Below are positions 27,318-35,173 of a stretch of 39,255 nt of DNA, piece after piece. The stretch is from Bacteroidota bacterium. GTDB lineage: Bacteria > Bacteroidota > Bacteroidia > Chitinophagales > Chitinophagaceae. How positions within the stretch are numbered: position 1 is the first letter of the stretch; every line of letters starts with the position of its first letter. The notes beneath the pieces are model-generated. The model did not search any database. It worked only from the letters and a program-made list of their open reading frames with translations, and was not told the DNA's origin. The position numbers and the translations under genes were made by a program. The stretch is from the NCBI GenBank assembly GCA_028876495.1, contig JAGWRO010000015.1, positions 1 to 39,255 of the forward strand, in the 5' to 3' direction.

Positions 27318-28469
27318 TTAAGGTAGTTCTTTGCTTTCAATCAAAGTCTCTTTTCGCGAATGAATAACGTCTTTTTTATTTCTTAATGATCCACCTTCTT
27401 TTTTTGAAAAAACGGATTTGATTTCGGCAATGATACTCAATGCAATTTCTTCGGGAGTTTCTGAACCGATTTCCAACCCGGCAGGCCCATAGATTTTTTT
27501 TAAATGATTATCCGGCAATTCAACTCCTTCATCTTTCAATTCATCCAACATTTTTTTCAATTTCTTTTTAGGCCCGAGAACGCCGATATATTCAACTTGC
27601 TTTTGCAACAAAGCCTTCAACATCGCCTTATCATAATTGTAATTGTGCGTCATTAATACAAAGGCTGTATTTGAATCAACAGGAATTTCTTCCAAAACGT
27701 TTTCAGGATTACATACCAAGACCTGGCAGGCACTTACAAACCGCTCCGGTTTTGCATGCGTTGTTCTTCCGTCAACCACGCGAACTTCCCAGCCAAGCAA
27801 ATCCGCGATTTGCGTTACCGGTAGCGCGTCGTTTCCCGCACCAATAATAATTAATGAAACCGGTGGTTTTAAAAATTCAATGAAAGCTGTTACAGAATTA
27901 TTTTCTGTAGTATAAGTTTTGAAGACTGATTTTTTTTGCTGGAGTGCACTTTTCGCATCTTTTACAATTTCATTTTTTAATTCCGCAACATCAATTTTGC
28001 CTGATACATTGCCATTCTCCTCTAAAAGAAGTGATGTTCCAACTTGCTTATTTCTTTTATCTTCTAAAGAAAATAAAGTAATCAGCACCGCATGTTGCCG
28101 TACTGAAACAGCTTTCTTAAGTAATTCCACTGGCTTCTTTTGATCATTTATTGGTTCAAACAAAACCTGGATAATTCCTTCGCAACCTAACTGCAGTCCG
28201 ATCGCTGCATCTTCTTCATCGCTTGTGTCATAAGTTACCAATTTCGTTTGCTGTTGAGACAGCACCAGCATTGCTTTTCGCAACGCATCACCTTCAAGGC
28301 ACCCACCACTTATTGCACCGAAAATCTGGCCATCTTCTCTTACCAGCATACGTGCACCCGCTCTTCTGTAGGATGAACCTTCCACATGAACTACTGTAAC
28401 AAGTGCAGTTTGCATTCGCATTTGTTTAGCTTCTTCAAATGCATTTATAAGATGATTGATTTCTTTCAT
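27318..28469 (-). CDS. XdhC/CoxI family molybdenum hydroxylase maturation protein
   Basis: 383 aa. The N-terminal XdhC_CoxI domain shows VEGSSYRRAGARMLVREDG and GAISGGCLEGDALRKA, followed by GLQLGCEGIIQVLFEP, all hallmark motifs. The C-terminal XdhC Rossmann domain begins around SLIIIGAGNDALPVTQIADLLGWEVRVVDGR and continues with LMTHNYNYDKAML and YIGVLGPKKK. XdhC binds the molybdenum cofactor and sulfurates or inserts it into xanthine dehydrogenase-type enzymes. It is the last gene of a four-gene minus-strand cluster with the 2Fe-2S, Mo and cytochrome c genes, 12 bp after the cytochrome, so it most likely serves that enzyme. Confidence 0.9.
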   Translation of the reverse strand: MKEINHLINAFEEAKQMRMQTALVTVVHVEGSSYRRAGARMLVREDGQIFGAISGGCLEGDALRKAMLVLSQQQTKLVTYDTSDEEDAAIGLQLGCEGIIQVLFEPINDQKKPVELLKKAVSVRQHAVLITLFSLEDKRNKQVGTSLLLEENGNVSGKIDVAELKNEIVKDAKSALQQKKSVFKTYTTENNSVTAFIEFLKPPVSLIIIGAGNDALPVTQIADLLGWEVRVVDGRTTHAKPERFVSACQVLVCNPENVLEEIPVDSNTAFVLMTHNYNYDKAMLKALLQKQVEYIGVLGPKKKLKKMLDELKDEGVELPDNHLKKIYGPAGLEIGSETPEEIALSIIAEIKSVFSKKEGGSLRNKKDVIHSRKETLIESKELP

Positions 28470-28481
28470 TACATGGAAAAC

Positions 28482-28892
28482 TTATTTCCGGAGCACTTTC
28501 ACCTTTTCCGGCAAAACAGGATCTTTCATTTTATTGCCAAATGAATTGCGGGTATAATTTAACACATCTGCCACCTGTTCATCGGTTAAATAATTAAGAG
28601 GAAGCATCTGGCCGTTGTAGGTCGTGTCATTCACAACAACCTCGCCTGTTTGGCCGTTAAGCACTATATCAATCAAAGTGTCAATGGGTTTTTTTAAATA
28701 ATCAGATTTTGCCAAAGGCGGATAAACACCCGGTGTTGAATTCCCTGCTTCCATGTGGCAAGTGATGCAATAGGTGGTGTACACTTCTTTTCCACGCTCA
28801 ATACTTTTGGCAAGATCATACTTTTGATAAAACGCCGAACTGATAAAAAATATAGTTATGCATGCAACAGATGCAACCAAAACCTTCTTCAT
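28482..28892 (-). CDS. periplasmic c-type cytochrome, single heme
   Basis: 136 aa. An N-terminal signal or anchor (residues 1-21) is followed by a class I cytochrome c fold. The heme site is C42-I-T-C45-H46 and the likely axial Met is M96 in NGQMLPL. The C-terminal helix YLTDEQVADVLNYTRNSFG is a family hallmark. Being placed between the Mo-subunit gene and XdhC, it is a good candidate electron acceptor for the hydroxylase instead of NAD. Many two-subunit isoquinoline oxidoreductase-like enzymes have such a cytochrome domain or gene. The start ATG lies about 43 bp after the Mo-subunit stop. Confidence 0.88.
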   Translation of the reverse strand: MKKVLVASVACITIFFISSAFYQKYDLAKSIERGKEVYTTYCITCHMEAGNSTPGVYPPLAKSDYLKKPIDTLIDIVLNGQTGEVVVNDTTYNGQMLPLNYLTDEQVADVLNYTRNSFGNKMKDPVLPEKVKVLRK

Positions 28893-28934
28893 ATTTTCAA
28901 TAATTTAGGATACAAATTTATGTATGATTTACCA

Positions 28935-31097
28935 TCATACGTTGTGAATATCAAAAGGCAGTTTCCTGATGCGTTTACCGGTAGCCGCATAAATTGCATT
29001 ACACAAAGCAGGTGCGAAGGGTGGTAAACCCGGCTCTCCAACTCCTTTGATTTTAGGACCGCCATTGGCAAGGATATGTACTTCAACCGGCGGCATTTCA
29101 TTGATGCGAACCAATTGGTTGGTATTATAATTCTTTTGAACAGTTTGCCCGTTTTCAAAGGTGATTCCGCTTTTTATAGCGGCGGTTAAGGCCATAACTG
29201 CAGCACCTTCTACCTGCGCTTTTACCATGTCGGGATTTACAACGGTTCCCAGGTCGATGACAGCATAAGCTTTTTCAATATTAACTCCGTTTCCTTTTTT
29301 AGAAACTTCAATAACATAGCCTGCAAGGCCTGCAAAAAATTCATATTGCGCTACACCACGTCCCCAACCGGCAGGTAATGGTTTATCCCAATTGGAAACT
29401 TCTTTCAACTTTTGCAGAACTGTTTTTGTATCTGAATCTTTAGTCAATAAACCAAGACGAAATTCCATTGGATCTTTATTGGCTTTTACTGCCATTTCAT
29501 CAATAAAAGATTCATGGGCAAATGCAAGAGTAGTACTTGTAACAGCACGCCACGCTGCTACAGGAATATGAAAGTCCGCATTAACATACAAATTTTTCAT
29601 GTTCGGGAATTCATATTTTTGATCACTGATTCCCTCGGTCATTGTGCCGTCGGTTTTAGTTTTATCATAATTTTTGCTGTACCTGATCGTAGGAGAGATC
29701 ACTTTATGTTGAAAAGCCAATGCTTTTCCATCTGCTGATAAGCCAGCCTTAAGTGCAGAAAAAGTCATAGGGCGGAAAGGGCCTTGTTCCGTATCATCTT
29801 CTCTTGTCCATAATACTTTTACAGGTTTTCCAATGGCTTTTGAAAGTTGAACGGCCTCGTCAACAAAATCCGTGTACAAACGCCTTCCAAATGCACCGCC
29901 ACTAAACATAGTATGTATGGTCAAATTTTCCTCAGGGATATTGTACTTTTTGGTGAATTCACCCATAATTCCACCTGGCACTTGTGTAGAAGCCCAAATC
30001 TCCAGTTTATTACCATCAGTCCAACTTGCCACACAATTCATTGGTTCAATTGGTGAATGAGAAACCACCGGTGTTTCATAAAATGAATCCAATTTCACCG
30101 GCGCTTCAGAATAGGCTTTATCAAAATTTCCTTCCTCTTTATCAATGGCGCCATCTTGCTTTGATAAATCATGCAGGTACTGCGTATAATCTTTTGAATT
30201 GAATTTGTCATTTCCCTGGTCGTCCCATTTTATAGAAAGAGCCTTACGACCTTGTAAAGCTGCCCAATAATTTTCACCAATCACAGCAATACAATCGTAG
30301 GTATAAGGGCCGAATATGCGCTGGCATTTTTCAACACCAATTACTCCTTTTACTTTTTTTGCTACTGAATCATCATAACTCACCAATTTTGCTCCAAATA
30401 CAGGAGAATGGGCAATTGAAGCATACACCATTCCCGGAACTTCCACATCAATGCCAAATACGGCTCTGCCTGAAGATTTTAGAGGAATATCAGGGCGTTG
30501 TATGTCTTTGCCTAATAACTTAAAATCCTTGGGGTCTTTTAGTTTCGGATCTTTTGGAACCTCCAGTTTTGCTGCAGCTTCTGCCAAATCTCCATAACCT
30601 ATACTTTTGCCGGAAGGTTTATGAAACACTTTTGCATCTTCTGCATAACATTCTCCAACCGGAACTTTCCATTGGTTTGCTGCAGCCATAACAAGCATTT
30701 CTTTTGCAGAAGCGCCTACTTTCCTTAATTGGAAATAACTGCCGCGAACGGAACTGCTTCCTCCCGCAGATTGGCCGGGGCCGAACCTTTTTTCGCCACC
30801 GGTTTGTTGAATGGTAACTCCTGTAAGAGGCACTTCCAGTTCTTCCGCAATTAAAGAAGGAATCGATTGAAAAGTTCCCTGGCCCATTTCAGGCTTGGGA
30901 TTGAAGATGGTAATGGTTCCATTTTTTTCAATCATAACAAAAGGAGTCAATCCATAAGGGGCAACGTCGCCTGCTTTGGCAACAGAAGCTGTTCCTGCCT
31001 TACTTTTTAGTGAAAGGCCAATGATAAAGCCGGCGCCCGTAATGCCGCTAAATTTTAAAAATTTTCGGCGATCTATTTTTGAAAGTACTTGTTCCAT
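28935..31097 (-). CDS. molybdopterin-binding subunit of a xanthine dehydrogenase-family oxidoreductase (IorB-like)
   Basis: 720 aa. Residues 1-43 carry a Tat signal with DRRKFLKFSG, so the folded enzyme is exported to the periplasm. The large Mo domain has PEMGQGTFQSIPSLIAEELE, a Q-S-A-G-G-S-S-S-V-R-G loop, SGGAFGRRL and the C-terminal GVGEPG motif, where E688 would be the catalytic base Glu. The length and AFGRR variant match IorB/aldehyde dehydrogenase-like two-subunit enzymes rather than classic XDH. Substrate (an N-heterocycle or aldehyde) is unknown. It needs the 2Fe-2S partner encoded just upstream (41 bp gap) and the XdhC maturation factor downstream. Confidence 0.92.
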   Translation of the reverse strand: MEQVLSKIDRRKFLKFSGITGAGFIIGLSLKSKAGTASVAKAGDVAPYGLTPFVMIEKNGTITIFNPKPEMGQGTFQSIPSLIAEELEVPLTGVTIQQTGGEKRFGPGQSAGGSSSVRGSYFQLRKVGASAKEMLVMAAANQWKVPVGECYAEDAKVFHKPSGKSIGYGDLAEAAAKLEVPKDPKLKDPKDFKLLGKDIQRPDIPLKSSGRAVFGIDVEVPGMVYASIAHSPVFGAKLVSYDDSVAKKVKGVIGVEKCQRIFGPYTYDCIAVIGENYWAALQGRKALSIKWDDQGNDKFNSKDYTQYLHDLSKQDGAIDKEEGNFDKAYSEAPVKLDSFYETPVVSHSPIEPMNCVASWTDGNKLEIWASTQVPGGIMGEFTKKYNIPEENLTIHTMFSGGAFGRRLYTDFVDEAVQLSKAIGKPVKVLWTREDDTEQGPFRPMTFSALKAGLSADGKALAFQHKVISPTIRYSKNYDKTKTDGTMTEGISDQKYEFPNMKNLYVNADFHIPVAAWRAVTSTTLAFAHESFIDEMAVKANKDPMEFRLGLLTKDSDTKTVLQKLKEVSNWDKPLPAGWGRGVAQYEFFAGLAGYVIEVSKKGNGVNIEKAYAVIDLGTVVNPDMVKAQVEGAAVMALTAAIKSGITFENGQTVQKNYNTNQLVRINEMPPVEVHILANGGPKIKGVGEPGLPPFAPALCNAIYAATGKRIRKLPFDIHNV

Positions 31098-31138
31098 GAT
31101 GAGAATTGAAAAGTTTAAAAATTATAAGTCTACCTTTT

Positions 31139-31597
31139 TTATACCAATTCGGCGGCGCGATGAATAGCACTACGAATGCGTTGATAAGTTCCGCAGCGGC
31201 AAAGGTTTCCCTGCATTGCCGCATCAATATCCGCATCTGTAGGATGAGGTTTATTTTTAAGCAAGGCAACCGCGCTCATTATTTGCCCGGATTGGCAATA
31301 GCCGCATTGAGGTACCTGCATTTCAATCCATGCTTTTTGTACGGCATGATCAATATTTTCTGAAATGCCTTCGATAGTAGTAATTTTTTTACCAGCGGCG
31401 GCAGCTACCGGAAAACTACACGAGCGAATAGGAGTACCTTCAAGATGAACAGTACACGCGCCGCATTGTGCAATTCCGCAACCAAATTTGGTTCCTTTTA
31501 ATCCTACAAAATCACGAATTGCCCAAAGTAAAGGCATTTGCGGATCTACATCGATCTTGTAATCTTTGTTGTTAACGTTTAAAGTGTATTCTGGCAT
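31139..31597 (-). CDS. (2Fe-2S)-binding subunit of the molybdenum hydroxylase (IorA-like)
   Basis: 152 aa, the standard small-subunit length. The plant-ferredoxin-type cluster uses C40, C45, C48 and C60, and the second helical domain uses C98, C101, C133 and C135 (CGYCQSGQ and CRCGTYQ). All eight ligands are present, so it should hold two 2Fe-2S clusters that carry electrons from the Mo centre. It has no export signal of its own and is probably co-exported by Tat with the Mo subunit, as in related enzymes. First gene of the minus-strand operon. The 280-bp gap upstream holds a plus-strand promoter candidate for the next gene but no clear minus-strand one. Confidence 0.93.
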
Positions 31598-31877: not shown

Positions 31878-32297
31878 ATGACAATACCAACTGATAGAAA
31901 AATTTACGAAGGCGAAATAGCTACTTACTGGTTTGATGATGGAATGCTCGTGTCACTTTCAAAAAGCCCGAAACGAACGGTCGAAAACATCACAGCAAAT
32001 GTAGCCCTCGTAAAAAAGATTACCGGAAACCAAAGAGTACCGTTATTGATTTACCTTTCCGACTCGCCGGTGCCTGACAAAAAAACCCGTGTGTTTTCGA
32101 CTGAACAATTGCCGATAATTTATTCTGCAATGGCGATGATTTCAAAACCCGGACTTTCAAAATTTATTATGAACATTCTTTTTGCATTAAAACCTCCGCC
32201 CATCCCGATTAAAAGTTTTACCAACGACGTTGAAGCCAAAGAATGGCTGAAACAATATGTTAAAGAGAAATTTCAGTCAGATAAAAAAGATGTTTGA
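31878..32297 (+). CDS. STAS/SpoIIAA-like (DUF7793-type) protein
   Basis: 139 aa, soluble, no signal. The pattern of alternating strands and helices fits the STAS-like SpoIIAA family seen in Bacteroidota: an N-terminal strand pair around YEGEIATYWFDDGMLVSLSK, a helix from VENITANVALVKKI, a strand VPLLIYLSD and a C-terminal helix near DVEAKEWLKQYV. This assignment is by eye and moderate. A phosphorylatable Ser as in true SpoIIAA is not clear. Its 3' end overlaps the convergent MOSC gene by 25 bp. It has its own promoter candidate. Function unknown; a signalling or binding role is only suggested by the fold. Confidence 0.65.
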   Translation: MTIPTDRKIYEGEIATYWFDDGMLVSLSKSPKRTVENITANVALVKKITGNQRVPLLIYLSDSPVPDKKTRVFSTEQLPIIYSAMAMISKPGLSKFIMNILFALKPPPIPIKSFTNDVEAKEWLKQYVKEKFQSDKKDV

Positions 32298-33103
32298 TTC
32301 TGTCTTACAATTTCAATCGGGTCGCCCACATTTATTTTGCCTTTACCTTTCATCAATACATTTTGTCCGAAATACACTTTATTATTTTTTGACCGATAAG
32401 TAGCCAACGTTTTTAACGGTTCCTTTCCAGCAATTCCGGTTTCCTGGTTGGTGGTTGTTACCACGCATCTTGCAGAAGGTTTTACGCCATAAAAATCCAG
32501 ATCATTGATGCTAAAATGTTCCATTCCATCTTCTTCATAAGGTGTTCCGCCGGTAAAAACGATATTAGGCCGAAACCTGTTGACAGGAATCGGTTCGGCC
32601 AAACGGCTGTTAAGATCATCTAATGAGGCTTGCCCAATAATGAGTATAGGGTAAGCATCTGAAAAACTGGTGATGTCATTGTTGATTGCATATTTGGGGT
32701 CAACTCTTCTTTCGGTGCTATCCGGCATATAAACCAAACTGCATCTGATACCTAATTGTGAAGAAAACCATTCATTAACTTCCTTACTCATCAACAGCGC
32801 GTCGCAATCATCATCCCAGATTCTTACTGAAATTTTTTCGCCAACTTTACCGGGAACCAACGGCAATACAAGTTTGTTTTCAACTGAACCCTTCTGAAAA
32901 ACCATACAATGATCTTCTTCAATTGCGGTTTGCAGCAATGCCATTTTAGGAAATTCTCTTTGCGTGAGAAAGCGGTTGTTTTTATCGATCAACAAAAATC
33001 TTCTGTCGTGCTGCAATCCACGATCGGTTACGTTTGCGGATTGAATTGCAATTCCATGCAATGATTTGATCGGGTAAATAAATAATTGGCTTACTGAAAG
33101 CAA
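32273..33103 (-). CDS. mARC/YcbX-like MOSC domain molybdoenzyme
   Basis: 276 aa. An N-terminal beta-barrel domain (LFIYPIKSLHGIAI near residues 7-20, DRRFLLID) precedes a MOSC domain. RFRPNIVF (176-183) and SARCVVTTTNQETG, where C213 is the predicted molybdenum ligand, align with the mARC pattern SRCILTTVDPDTG. The C-terminal VGDPIEIV is also typical. mARC and YcbX reduce N-hydroxylated compounds, with YcbX having an extra ferredoxin domain; this protein lacks one and must use an external electron donor. No Moco synthesis genes are in the window. Neighbouring genes include a Mo hydroxylase operon, consistent with Moco use by this cell. Confidence 0.85.
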   Translation of the reverse strand: MLSVSQLFIYPIKSLHGIAIQSANVTDRGLQHDRRFLLIDKNNRFLTQREFPKMALLQTAIEEDHCMVFQKGSVENKLVLPLVPGKVGEKISVRIWDDDCDALLMSKEVNEWFSSQLGIRCSLVYMPDSTERRVDPKYAINNDITSFSDAYPILIIGQASLDDLNSRLAEPIPVNRFRPNIVFTGGTPYEEDGMEHFSINDLDFYGVKPSARCVVTTTNQETGIAGKEPLKTLATYRSKNNKVYFGQNVLMKGKGKINVGDPIEIVRQNQTSFLSD

Positions 33104-33220: not shown

Positions 33221-35173
33221 TTATTCAACTGCTTCCAGGTTCTTTTTATTTAGCCATCCATGTGTAGTTTGACCTTTGCTGTTGGTATAAACTATATATA
33301 CAAACCCATTTTCTTCAGCCTGGGGAGTTAAAACCACATCTTTGCGCGGCTTTAGGAAAACAGGTTTTAGTTTGTTTGGATCAGGCCCTGAATGGAACCA
33401 GGCTTTATTAATGACAGTATATTTCGTCGCGCCTTCGCCTGTTTTGGTCGTAGTTTCATTGATGGGTTTAGGGATGGTTGCAGGTTCTGTTATTTTTTCT
33501 TCCGGGTCGTTATTAATAGTAGCTTTATCAGCAATAGTAGCAGCGTCTGTCTCAGGTTCTTTAGAAGAATTGCTGATACTAATTTTTGAAGCAGAATCGG
33601 CTATTTTGACCTTGCTAAAAAAACGTTGGGAATTATCTTTTAAATAAAACCAATAGAAGGCAGCTGCGCCTGATATTAAAATCAGTAATACAAGAAGAAC
33701 AGGTACTAATTTCCTTCTCCGCTTTTTTTCAGGCAAGAGTTCACTCGTCTCGAAAAAATCATGCAGATTTTCTTTTTTTGCAGTAAGGACAGTTTCTGTT
33801 TCATCATCCCAAGACTCCTGCCTGATTAATTTATAGTCGTTAAAACTTAAACTGTAATTATTCGTTTTAATATAATTTACTGGTATAAAAAAACTCCTGT
33901 GCGAAGGATCAGTTGGATTATCTTTTCTGTATTTCCATTTATTAATAATATCCGTTACTTCATTAAAATCCAAATCGCCATTTTCGTTGCCGATATTACT
34001 TTCCTCTTTGTTACGTTTCTTATTTTTGCCGGTTCCCCATTTGCAAAACCAAAGATCTTCTGTAGTTGCAGATTCTGATTTATTAAAAACAAGAATGCCG
34101 GCTCCTGAAAAAATTGAATCGGTTTTGGGAGCCAAAGTAATTACCGCTTCAAGGTTGAAGTGATCAATAATATTTTTTCTCGTTTTTTGGATTGAGTGAT
34201 TTTCACTTTTCAATAACATCTGGGGAACAAGAATAACCGCGCGGCTTCCGGGTTTAAGGTTTTCAAGAATTTCGCTTAATAACTCATTTTCTTTTTCAAG
34301 TTTGCTTCCTTCAGGTGGCGTTTCTTTTGAAGGCATAGTTTCATTCGAAATTAACAAGCTCGAAATAATGAGTGTGGGATATTCCTTCAGGCTTTCCGTT
34401 CCAAAGGGTTTCATTCGGATTTTCGGGTTCTTAATTCCATGGAGAAACATATTCATAGCTGCAATACGCAGTTGAACCAAATTTGATTCTATCCCGCTCA
34501 CATTTGATTCAAAAAATTTATTTGAAGAGAATGGAATTTTATCTTTATCACCTTTGATTTCATGCCTGTAAGCATTTACGAGAAGGCTGCCAATTCCTGC
34601 GCACGGGTCCAGGATCACATCTTTATCCTCAGGCTCTGCAATTTCTACCAACAATTTTGAAATAAACTCCGGCAGAAATTCCTGGCTGCTTTCTGCTGTT
34701 ATTTTCAACTTGCTAAACAGGTATTCGATGATAGCTTCCTGGCTGGCCTTATCACTTGTTTCAATTAGGTTAACAATTTCAATGGAATTAAAAATTAGCT
34801 TTGGCGTAGGTTCTATCATTAAAGGCGCCATAAAAAAATCACTATATAGAGAATTTAAACGGGCGTAATTGTTCATCAGGTCTATTACTCCGTGTTCTTT
34901 ATTAAAAAGCTGCTGTATTTCCCTTGCGTTTAGTTTTTGTAATTTACTCCAGGTAAATTCTTCAATTTCTTTGGTATAAATAAAATTATCAGTGCCTGCA
35001 GCTTTTACTCTTTGATGGATTAACTCCCAGTCATCTAATTTTTTAATAAAGAAAAGATAGCTGATAAGGTCAAGAAGAGCCAAAGGCCTTAAATCGCTGA
35101 CGGGCCAGCAATTGTTCCATTTTTCGTAAATCCTTTCCTTTAAATGTGGGTTAAGTAGATGTGGTTTAAGCAT
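33221..35173 (-). CDS. HsdM-like N6-adenine methyltransferase-fold protein without NPPF/Y, fused to a membrane helix and SH3-like domain
   Basis: 650 aa. Residues about 10-175 resemble the helical N-terminal part of HsdM. Motif I LDPCAGIGSLL (188-198), an acidic GIES (227-230) and MNMFLHGI (240-247) fit the SAM-binding fold. Where NPPF/Y should stand, the text reads TLIISSLLISN (267-277): the catalytic motif is absent. LKPGSRAVILVP (306-317) and GAGILVFNKSE (357-367) match later HsdM strands. A KKRRRK stretch precedes one membrane helix (about 489-510), so the N-terminus is cytoplasmic. A Ser/Thr/Glu-rich linker (520-582) leads to an SH3-like domain (585-648), predicted periplasmic. No hsdR, hsdS or restriction gene is nearby. 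Function unknown; SAM sensing or scaffolding are possibilities. Confidence 0.85.
   Translation of the reverse strand: MLKPHLLNPHLKERIYEKWNNCWPVSDLRPLALLDLISYLFFIKKLDDWELIHQRVKAAGTDNFIYTKEIEEFTWSKLQKLNAREIQQLFNKEHGVIDLMNNYARLNSLYSDFFMAPLMIEPTPKLIFNSIEIVNLIETSDKASQEAIIEYLFSKLKITAESSQEFLPEFISKLLVEIAEPEDKDVILDPCAGIGSLLVNAYRHEIKGDKDKIPFSSNKFFESNVSGIESNLVQLRIAAMNMFLHGIKNPKIRMKPFGTESLKEYPTLIISSLLISNETMPSKETPPEGSKLEKENELLSEILENLKPGSRAVILVPQMLLKSENHSIQKTRKNIIDHFNLEAVITLAPKTDSIFSGAGILVFNKSESATTEDLWFCKWGTGKNKKRNKEESNIGNENGDLDFNEVTDIINKWKYRKDNPTDPSHRSFFIPVNYIKTNNYSLSFNDYKLIRQESWDDETETVLTAKKENLHDFFETSELLPEKKRRRKLVPVLLVLLILISGAAAFYWFYLKDNSQRFFSKVKIADSASKISISNSSKEPETDAATIADKATINNDPEEKITEPATIPKPINETTTKTGEGATKYTVINKAWFHSGPDPNKLKPVFLKPRKDVVLTPQAEENGFVYIVYTNSKGQTTHGWLNKKNLEAVE

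Follow-up and report, generated by a model that had tools for sequence, protein, structure and literature searches.

The window analyzed in this study (the whole stretch of 39,255 nucleotides at positions 1 to 39,255 of contig JAGWRO010000015.1, from a Bacteroidota bacterium of the family Chitinophagaceae) harbors on its minus strand a gene for a protein designated P0001, which consists of an HsdM-type body, one membrane helix, a disordered linker, and an all-beta C-terminal domain (Table 1). The plus-strand reading of 33221-35173 contained stops throughout in the register of the feature. Hereafter, HsdM-like proteins that hold the catalytic motif in their sequence are called ordinary HsdMs, and those with the layout of P0001 are called pseudo-HsdMs.

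Table 1. Features of the pseudo-HsdM gene and its product P0001 in the window.
Feature	Residues	Position	Strand	Remark
Whole pseudo-HsdM gene (P0001)		33221..35173	-	650 aa; ATG at 35173, stop at 33221
N-terminal helical domain of HsdM	1-147	34733..35173	-	
Methyltransferase (Rossmann) body	148-448	33830..34732	-	without catalytic motif
Lost cofactor-loop motif	163-168	34670..34687	-	SQEFLP; GQFRTP in relatives
Motif I remnant	189-198	34580..34609	-	DPCAGIGSLL
Lost catalytic motif IV	272-275	34349..34360	-	SLLI; NPPF in relatives
Linker, presumably cytoplasmic	449-488	33710..33829	-	KKRRRK at end
Single transmembrane helix	489-512	33638..33709	-	
Disordered linker, presumably periplasmic	513-570	33464..33637	-	
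C-terminal all-beta (SH3-like) domain	571-650	33224..33463	-	homologue of kinase tails

The window genes that were given to family libraries had housekeeping, transport, and metabolic functions and did not form a defense island. A separate cluster adjoins the pseudo-HsdM gene: positions 27318-31597 encode an XdhC-like protein, a cytochrome c, the Tat-signal-bearing large subunit of a molybdenum hydroxylase, and a small iron-sulfur subunit, and a small DUF7793 protein (31878-32297) lies between these genes and a MOSC-domain gene (32273-33103) that goes with them. The MOSC gene was found downstream of the pseudo-HsdM gene in three close genomes only, and it fits into the molybdenum-hydroxylase cluster. 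The molybdenum-hydroxylase, MOSC, DUF7793, efflux, and ClC genes were rejected as operon partners, being common only to the window and the genomes G001 and G018, and no neighbor was conserved through the clade in the window and the seven fetched stretches with pseudo-HsdM genes. A promoter-like sequence, TANNTTTG, was also rejected, as it occurred at chance level (59 found against 58.25 expected).

In the Pfam search, N6_Mtase (PF02384; residues 148-448, E 2.7e-28) was the only family above the cut-off on P0001; thus no protein kinase domain was recognized, and no effector domain was found. HsdM chains of the PDB matched P0001 by sequence (5ybb_A, 2.5e-15; 2okc_A, 2.4e-13), and PADLOC assigned it to MTase_I at 4.8e-49, compared with 3.9e-181 for an ordinary relative, with weaker matches to methyltransferase and mad2 models. 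P0001 is not a MAD2 protein of the MADS system according to NCBIfam, since NF047738 scored 28.1 bits against a cut-off of 720 bits and covered residues 159-209 only. A better name for P0001 was sought in NCBIfam and PADLOC, and neither supplied one. The original prediction, made from the letters of the sequence, described an HsdM-like protein without its catalytic motif, followed by a membrane helix and a C-terminal domain, and this layout was confirmed by Pfam, the PDB matches, the alignment, and a structure model.

The catalytic motif is lost in P0001. As had been noticed, motif I is present and the NPPF/Y position reads TLIISSLLISN (267-277), in which S272-L-L-I275 aligned on NPPF. The pattern [ND]PP[FYW] is absent along the entire protein, which removes the objection that an intact NPPY-like motif might lie elsewhere in it. 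All nine rows of the clade lacked [NDS]PP[FYWH], a motif held by 132 of the 133 other HsdM-like ORFs fetched; for this count the clade members were defined in advance by their locus ids, the motif could lie at any place in the ORF, and identical or contained ORFs were removed here, before the hydrophobic-window count, and from the listing of profile matches. The sole exception among the 133, at L066:7662-9173, is an ordinary-looking HsdM without a membrane helix that reads NEPF for NPPF, which may be either an independent change or a sequencing error.

The loss extends beyond the catalytic motif. Counted without a coverage filter, 115 columns were conserved in at least 90% of 47 ordinary HsdMs; 38 of these were absent from all nine pseudo-HsdMs, and 23 were kept by all nine. 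The lost columns include F165-R166-T167 of the GQFxTP loop, P273-P274, and positions of the FKPYAG loop (348-356), and conserved positions of the first helices (G26, N29, E35, and Q36) were also changed. Motif I was degenerate in several members, with G-x-G retained in eight of nine rows. Compared with a functional HsdM, P0001 retains the fold and the sequence descent and lacks both the catalytic motif and a complete pocket for cofactor and target base (GQFxTP and FKPYAG lost, motif I partly kept). In the published account of the PacII structure, loop 164-174 of M1 is described as contacting SAH, and N276 and F279 of NPPF as belonging to the catalytic pocket (PMC9613975). By the offsets of the PDB matches, residues 161-168 of P0001 are the probable counterpart of this SAH loop. 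Binding of SAM by P0001 is doubtful, and cofactor binding looks unlikely: the GQFxTP and FKPYAG loops are gone along with NPPF, and several members have a degenerate motif I. A residual cofactor or nucleotide pocket might persist, given G-x-G in eight of nine rows. P0001 presumably has no methylation activity.

An AlphaFold2 model from 60 sequences (mean pLDDT 75.7, pTM 0.66) replaced a first model from 7 sequences that was too poor (pLDDT 56.1, pTM 0.42). When the 60-sequence model was compared with the PDB by Foldseek, type I restriction-modification entries filled all of the first 20 rows, and the top match was 2okc_A from Bacteroides thetaiotaomicron (E 3.4e-20, rmsd 5.5), with a TM-score of 0.74 by target and 0.50 by query. 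The predicted structure thus recovered the HsdM fold, the comparison by which the original prediction was to be checked. A search of viral predicted folds placed DNA methyltransferases on top and added nothing.

To place the family, trees were built. In a tree of 62 rows, the nine pseudo-HsdMs formed one branch (SH-aLRT 100) with a stem of 1.39 changes per site, and the clade stood next to L122 (support 81), within HsdMs from the same taxonomic family. The second tree had 51 rows, eight of them pseudo-HsdMs, and was built without the pocket columns and without L023, L144, L191, L145, L146, and six outgroup rows; it supported the clade at 100/100 and, more weakly, its position beside L122 at 89/72. 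With the pocket columns removed, the shared motif loss was unable to create the grouping. Both trees gave long-branch and letter-composition warnings on the pseudo-HsdM rows, and the outgroup was not confined to a single side of a branch; the grouping is therefore more secure than the exact point of attachment. These sequence comparisons indicate that the clade arose once, branching among ordinary type I HsdMs with NPPF. The N-terminal helical domain and the N6-methyltransferase fold are common to P0001 and HsdM (2okc, 5ybb, and 7vru; PDLC03021), and common descent is clear. P0001 differs from HsdM by the absence of NPPF, GQFxTP, and FKPYAG and by a membrane helix and an outer domain that occupy the place of the usual C-terminus.

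The ordinary relatives have the company expected of type I systems: in five of the six loci given to Pfam, a Methylase_S (HsdS) gene was the neighbor, and the sixth (L198) had a YhcG-type nuclease in this place. Among four large neighbors tested, three were HsdR-like and the fourth (L196) was another methyltransferase. At L196:2557-5355, a protein of 932 aa with N6_Mtase, Methylase_S, and HATPase_c adjoins an ordinary HsdM/HsdS pair. A further HsdM relative, in L128 (G238), matched over 1-478 with two stops, and its open frame covered profile positions 67-475 only; it is possibly interrupted near its start.

The situation beside the pseudo-HsdM genes is different. No hsdS was found at any of eight loci (128,731 bases, covering seven of the nine genes), whereas all ten control loci, taken from 79, were positive; the scan for hsdS and hsdR left aside the short contigs of G014 and G018:C181. 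The hsdR profile was likewise negative at the eight pseudo-HsdM loci, yet only one of ten controls was positive, and this zero says little because the profile is weak. Thus, of the predicted lack of both partner genes, the part concerning hsdS beside the gene held, and the part concerning hsdR rests on a profile that found one control in ten. A match to HsdS occurred somewhere in 12 of the 20 genomes of the genus, including that of the window, and was missing in the carriers G005 and G014, both of which are incomplete genomes.

The pseudo-HsdM layout was identified in seven of the 20 genomes of the genus; ten genomes matched the profile, three of them through ordinary HsdMs only. The genome of the window (G000), G001, G005, G014, and G016 have one gene each, and G011 and G018 have two each, which gives nine genes provided that L023 and L026, two pieces of G011 at contig ends, belong to one gene (L031 and L032, which equal contigs of G018 and G001 in length, were not counted again). 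Identity to the window protein ranged from 94% down to 29% among clade members. The whole architecture was present in six assemblies, and the seventh (G011) carries it in pieces; the outer domain was visible as a whole in seven of nine genes, contig ends cutting L005 inside the domain and L009 before it. Frames were open in the pseudo-HsdM members read. At L026:1489-2931, a piece of the second G011 pseudo-HsdM has a tail with two copies of the outer domain. The survey of homologues proposed with the original prediction thus found the NPPF loss and the membrane helix to be common to a clade in seven genomes. An assembly chimera or joining error was ruled out by the same layout in independent assemblies, and the suspicion that the helix and the SH3-like part had been joined by such an error is contradicted by these assemblies and by their forming one clade.

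Full-length matches (1-649) were found only in the genus of the window among 394 family, 396 order, and 395 phylum genomes. These samples overlap, the thresholds were E ≤ 1e-40 or 1e-60, and 12 of 24 matches in one of the three wider samples were judged from table rows alone. None of the other matches in the wider samples extended past profile position 507, and those that got to 485 or beyond ran through stop codons. The absence outside the genus holds for the best candidates only, because at most three were scored per genome.

The predicted single membrane helix flanked by KKRRRK is present, and in a conserved family: the KKRRRK of P0001 (483-488) stands just before a strong hydrophobic helix peaking at 489-507. 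None of the 133 HsdM-like ORFs outside the clade had a hydrophobic window past the body (19 residues with a mean of at least 1.7), and four had one elsewhere. The body-spanning profile matches of ordinary relatives end at about 444-484 (among the 110 of 131 rows listed), and from this place the pseudo-HsdMs continue as a charged linker followed by the membrane helix. For PacII, the M subunits are reported to dock the HsdS coiled coil through their C-terminal tails (PMC9613975). The linker 449-488 would stand where an ordinary HsdM continues into this HsdS-docking tail. The N-terminus is probably cytoplasmic and the C-terminus periplasmic; an outside location of the tail domain is supported because kinases share it, and their bodies have to lie in the cytoplasm. 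A tail outside also agrees with the lysine/arginine cluster that precedes the helix, although two of eight members lack a net-charge excess on that side.

The tail of P0001 has seven predicted strands at 584-649, with a block pLDDT of 82-93 in the model. In 12 tail sequences, no SH3 family model (E ≤ 1) and no PASTA model was matched in Pfam, and the tail profile gave zero sequence matches against PDB chains. The predicted SH3-like C-terminus therefore stands as a modeled all-beta domain of seven strands and not as a match to an SH3 family in profile searches; "SH3-like" is a description only, because no SH3 family and no PDB sequence matched. Instead, a profile comparison by hhalign found the pseudo-HsdM tails homologous to tails of kinases (99.9%, E 2.9e-31). 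The homology of the outer domain to the outer domain of receptor kinases, as judged from these profiles, is new here. In the genus, the tail profile matched 16 places in 10 of 20 genomes: eight in pseudo-HsdMs, five in kinase tails, two in pieces at or beside kinase loci (G008 and G014), and one in a 372-aa ORF of G003. In the family, it matched 33 of 294 genomes; of the 26 host ORFs read (27 loci fetched), ten were kinases, including the seven best matches. Of the other 16 hosts, 103-519 aa long, 12 had a hydrophobic stretch; Pfam gave no match for the three non-kinase hosts submitted to it. The pseudo-HsdM tails were not one group in the tail tree (three changes, weak support), which had too few columns to tell if the tail derived from a kinase. 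The tail may have been gained either once or several times.

The genome of the window itself contains one such receptor kinase (L117:6134-7768, on G000:C76), which stands in a row (L117:6134-12692) with an FHA-like protein of 255 aa (sub-threshold, 18.1 bits against a cut-off of 20.7) and an FtsW/RodA plus transpeptidase protein of 1376 aa. In four loci of the family, an above-cut-off FHA match adjoined the kinase; of the three examined for wall-synthesis genes, two also had an FtsW/RodA plus transpeptidase gene, and one had a transpeptidase gene. At L229:4989-10557, three tail-bearing kinases follow in tandem after FHA and FtsW/RodA-transpeptidase genes. The actinobacterial cluster is described as comprising pknB, fhaA, rodA, and pbpA (PMC6554272). 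By analogy, L117 resembles a PknB-like cell-wall kinase locus in Bacteroidota, with the SH3-like domain in the position of PASTA. A cell-envelope role for the outer part of the pseudo-HsdMs is supported indirectly by the presence of this domain on kinases encoded next to FHA and FtsW/RodA-PBP genes.

Mean pairwise identity in the pocket (56 columns, picked from known motifs after the alignment was seen) fell from 0.76 in ordinary HsdMs to 0.41 in pseudo-HsdMs, and in the rest of the body from 0.51 to 0.37; the near-copies L004 and L005 were excluded. This drop of 0.35 in the pocket against 0.14 elsewhere in the body was reached in 0 of 10000 permutations, and the N-terminal domain changed from 0.49 to 0.42 only. 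In the aligned sequences, the loss of conservation in the clade is greatest at the pocket for cofactor and target base. The proposed repurposed HsdM fold without the catalytic motif is thus supported by the column losses, the drop in pocket identity, the model, Foldseek, and the motif count in relatives. The Nei-Gojobori dN/dS between the window and G001 was 0.08 in the N-terminal domain, rose to 0.15 in the body and 0.21 in the outer domain, and reached 0.42 in the outer linker. Six of nine clade genes entered this comparison; the N-terminal domain had the lowest value of the three folded parts in all six pairs, and both it and the body were well below 1 in each pair. The sole high value of a folded part, 0.63 for the outer domain between the window and G018:C181, rests on 19 codons. 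With dN/dS low and the motifs lost, purifying selection evidently keeps the protein, but not for catalysis.

By descent, motif loss, tail homology, and selection, the ancestor of the clade is recognizable in the sequences as a type I HsdM that lost NPPF and the cofactor-loop motifs; its descendants now end in a transmembrane helix, a linker, and the kind of all-beta domain carried by receptor kinases of cell-wall operons. We consider it rather likely that P0001 is an exapted pseudo-methyltransferase serving as a single-pass envelope receptor or scaffold, with an anchor in place of the HsdS-docking helix. The membrane anchor and sensor domain would have taken the place of the HsdS-docking C-terminal tail, giving a receptor of the PknB type in which a body for binding or scaffolding, and not a kinase, would serve as output. 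On the outside, the domain would recognize a component of the cell wall or a partner in the periplasm; for peptidoglycan, the hint comes from gene context alone. On the inside, the pseudo-methyltransferase body would serve as a docking site for a cytoplasmic protein or a nucleic acid, perhaps as a pair joined through the HsdM-HsdM interface.

Several other explanations were weighed. A decaying pseudogene or an assembly chimera would account for the loss of motifs and nothing further, and it is extremely improbable: in all six pairs the dN/dS of both the N-terminal domain and the body lies well under 1, the members read have open frames, and independent assemblies agree in the layout. A tether between DNA and envelope, in which the dead HsdM, alone or as a dimer, clamps DNA while the tail on the wall positions the chromosome or couples it to wall growth, would agree with the constraint kept best in the N-terminal domain and with the contacts to DNA reported for helices alpha1 and alpha7 of PacII M2 (PMC9613975). 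It is nevertheless unlikely: type I specificity comes from HsdS, which was not found near pseudo-HsdM genes; the conserved positions of the first helices noted above are changed; and no gain of positive charge for DNA binding was seen, the first 450 residues having a mean net charge of -8.6 in nine pseudo-HsdM rows against -6.4 in 47 ordinary rows, that is, a body as acidic as that of ordinary HsdMs. Very unlikely is a decoy or guard in phage defense, in which the body would bind DNA mimics of the Ocr or ArdA type and the membrane tail would relay an alarm. The structural matches do include type I complexes with Ocr and ArdA (2y7c, 7eew, 7bst, and 7bto), and the HsdS matches in most genomes of the genus, the window's among them, would suit it, but against it stand the surroundings of the gene, the PADLOC result (MTase_I with weaker methyltransferase and mad2 matches), the lack of an effector domain in Pfam, and the carriers G005 and G014 without an HsdS match, though their genomes are incomplete.

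The tail-bearing kinase could also have the pseudo-HsdM as its partner, one that serves the kinase/FHA/FtsW-PBP pathway as substrate or scaffold, like CwlM with PknB in mycobacteria. CwlM is a repurposed amidase. It is described as a PknB substrate with FhaA and MurJ as partners (PMC6180346). The same tail domain in the same genome and the FHA-like and FtsW/RodA-PBP genes adjoining the kinase favor such a link, as does the presence of a pseudo-HsdM in four of the six genomes (of 20) in which kinase and FHA occur together. However, both are missing in three of seven carriers, including the 99% complete G001, and by hand calculation an overlap as large as four between seven carriers and six kinase genomes has a chance of about 0.08, which is not beyond chance. 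Since the six kinase genomes and the seven carriers share only four, the kinase or FHA protein is not supported as an obligate partner, and we regard this explanation as distinctly unlikely.

The envelope receptor or scaffold that we prefer has partial counterparts. The receptor kinases of the family (e.g., L117:6134-7768) have a homologous outer domain and the same order of body, membrane helix, linker, and domain, whereas the body of P0001 is a pseudo-methyltransferase and no FHA or PBP gene was recognized among the neighbors examined. PknB and other PASTA kinases of Actinobacteria and Firmicutes offer an analogy only: their single-pass layout is like that predicted for P0001, but its body is not a kinase and its outer domain has no PASTA match, and the PknB loci with FHA, RodA, and PBP genes, as described (PMC6554272), resemble the locus of the related kinase and not that of P0001. 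In YARHG-domain kinases, a kinase, a membrane helix, and an outer domain proposed to bind peptidoglycan are reported in the same order (PMC3355149); the outer domain of P0001 differs from theirs, and they have no methyltransferase body. No description of the domain order of P0001 was found in the open-access literature, which fits the earlier remark that no such system was known.

The evolutionary result is firm and unusual. Tentatively, the pseudo-HsdMs might represent a new class of transmembrane receptor, with a body that evolved once in one genus, in which a dead HsdM would read the state of the envelope through a kinase-type outer domain and pass it on by binding a protein or DNA in the cytoplasm. 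If true, this would be a clear case of a defense enzyme turned into a membrane receptor or scaffold, with its steps visible in motif-bearing type I relatives, one long stem branch, the loss of the pocket, and a kinase-type tail. It would also provide access to an outer domain, as yet without a name, that kinases encoded next to FtsW/RodA-PBP genes in this family of Bacteroidota have in common with the pseudo-HsdMs, and it would warn that some annotated N-6 DNA methylases may methylate nothing.
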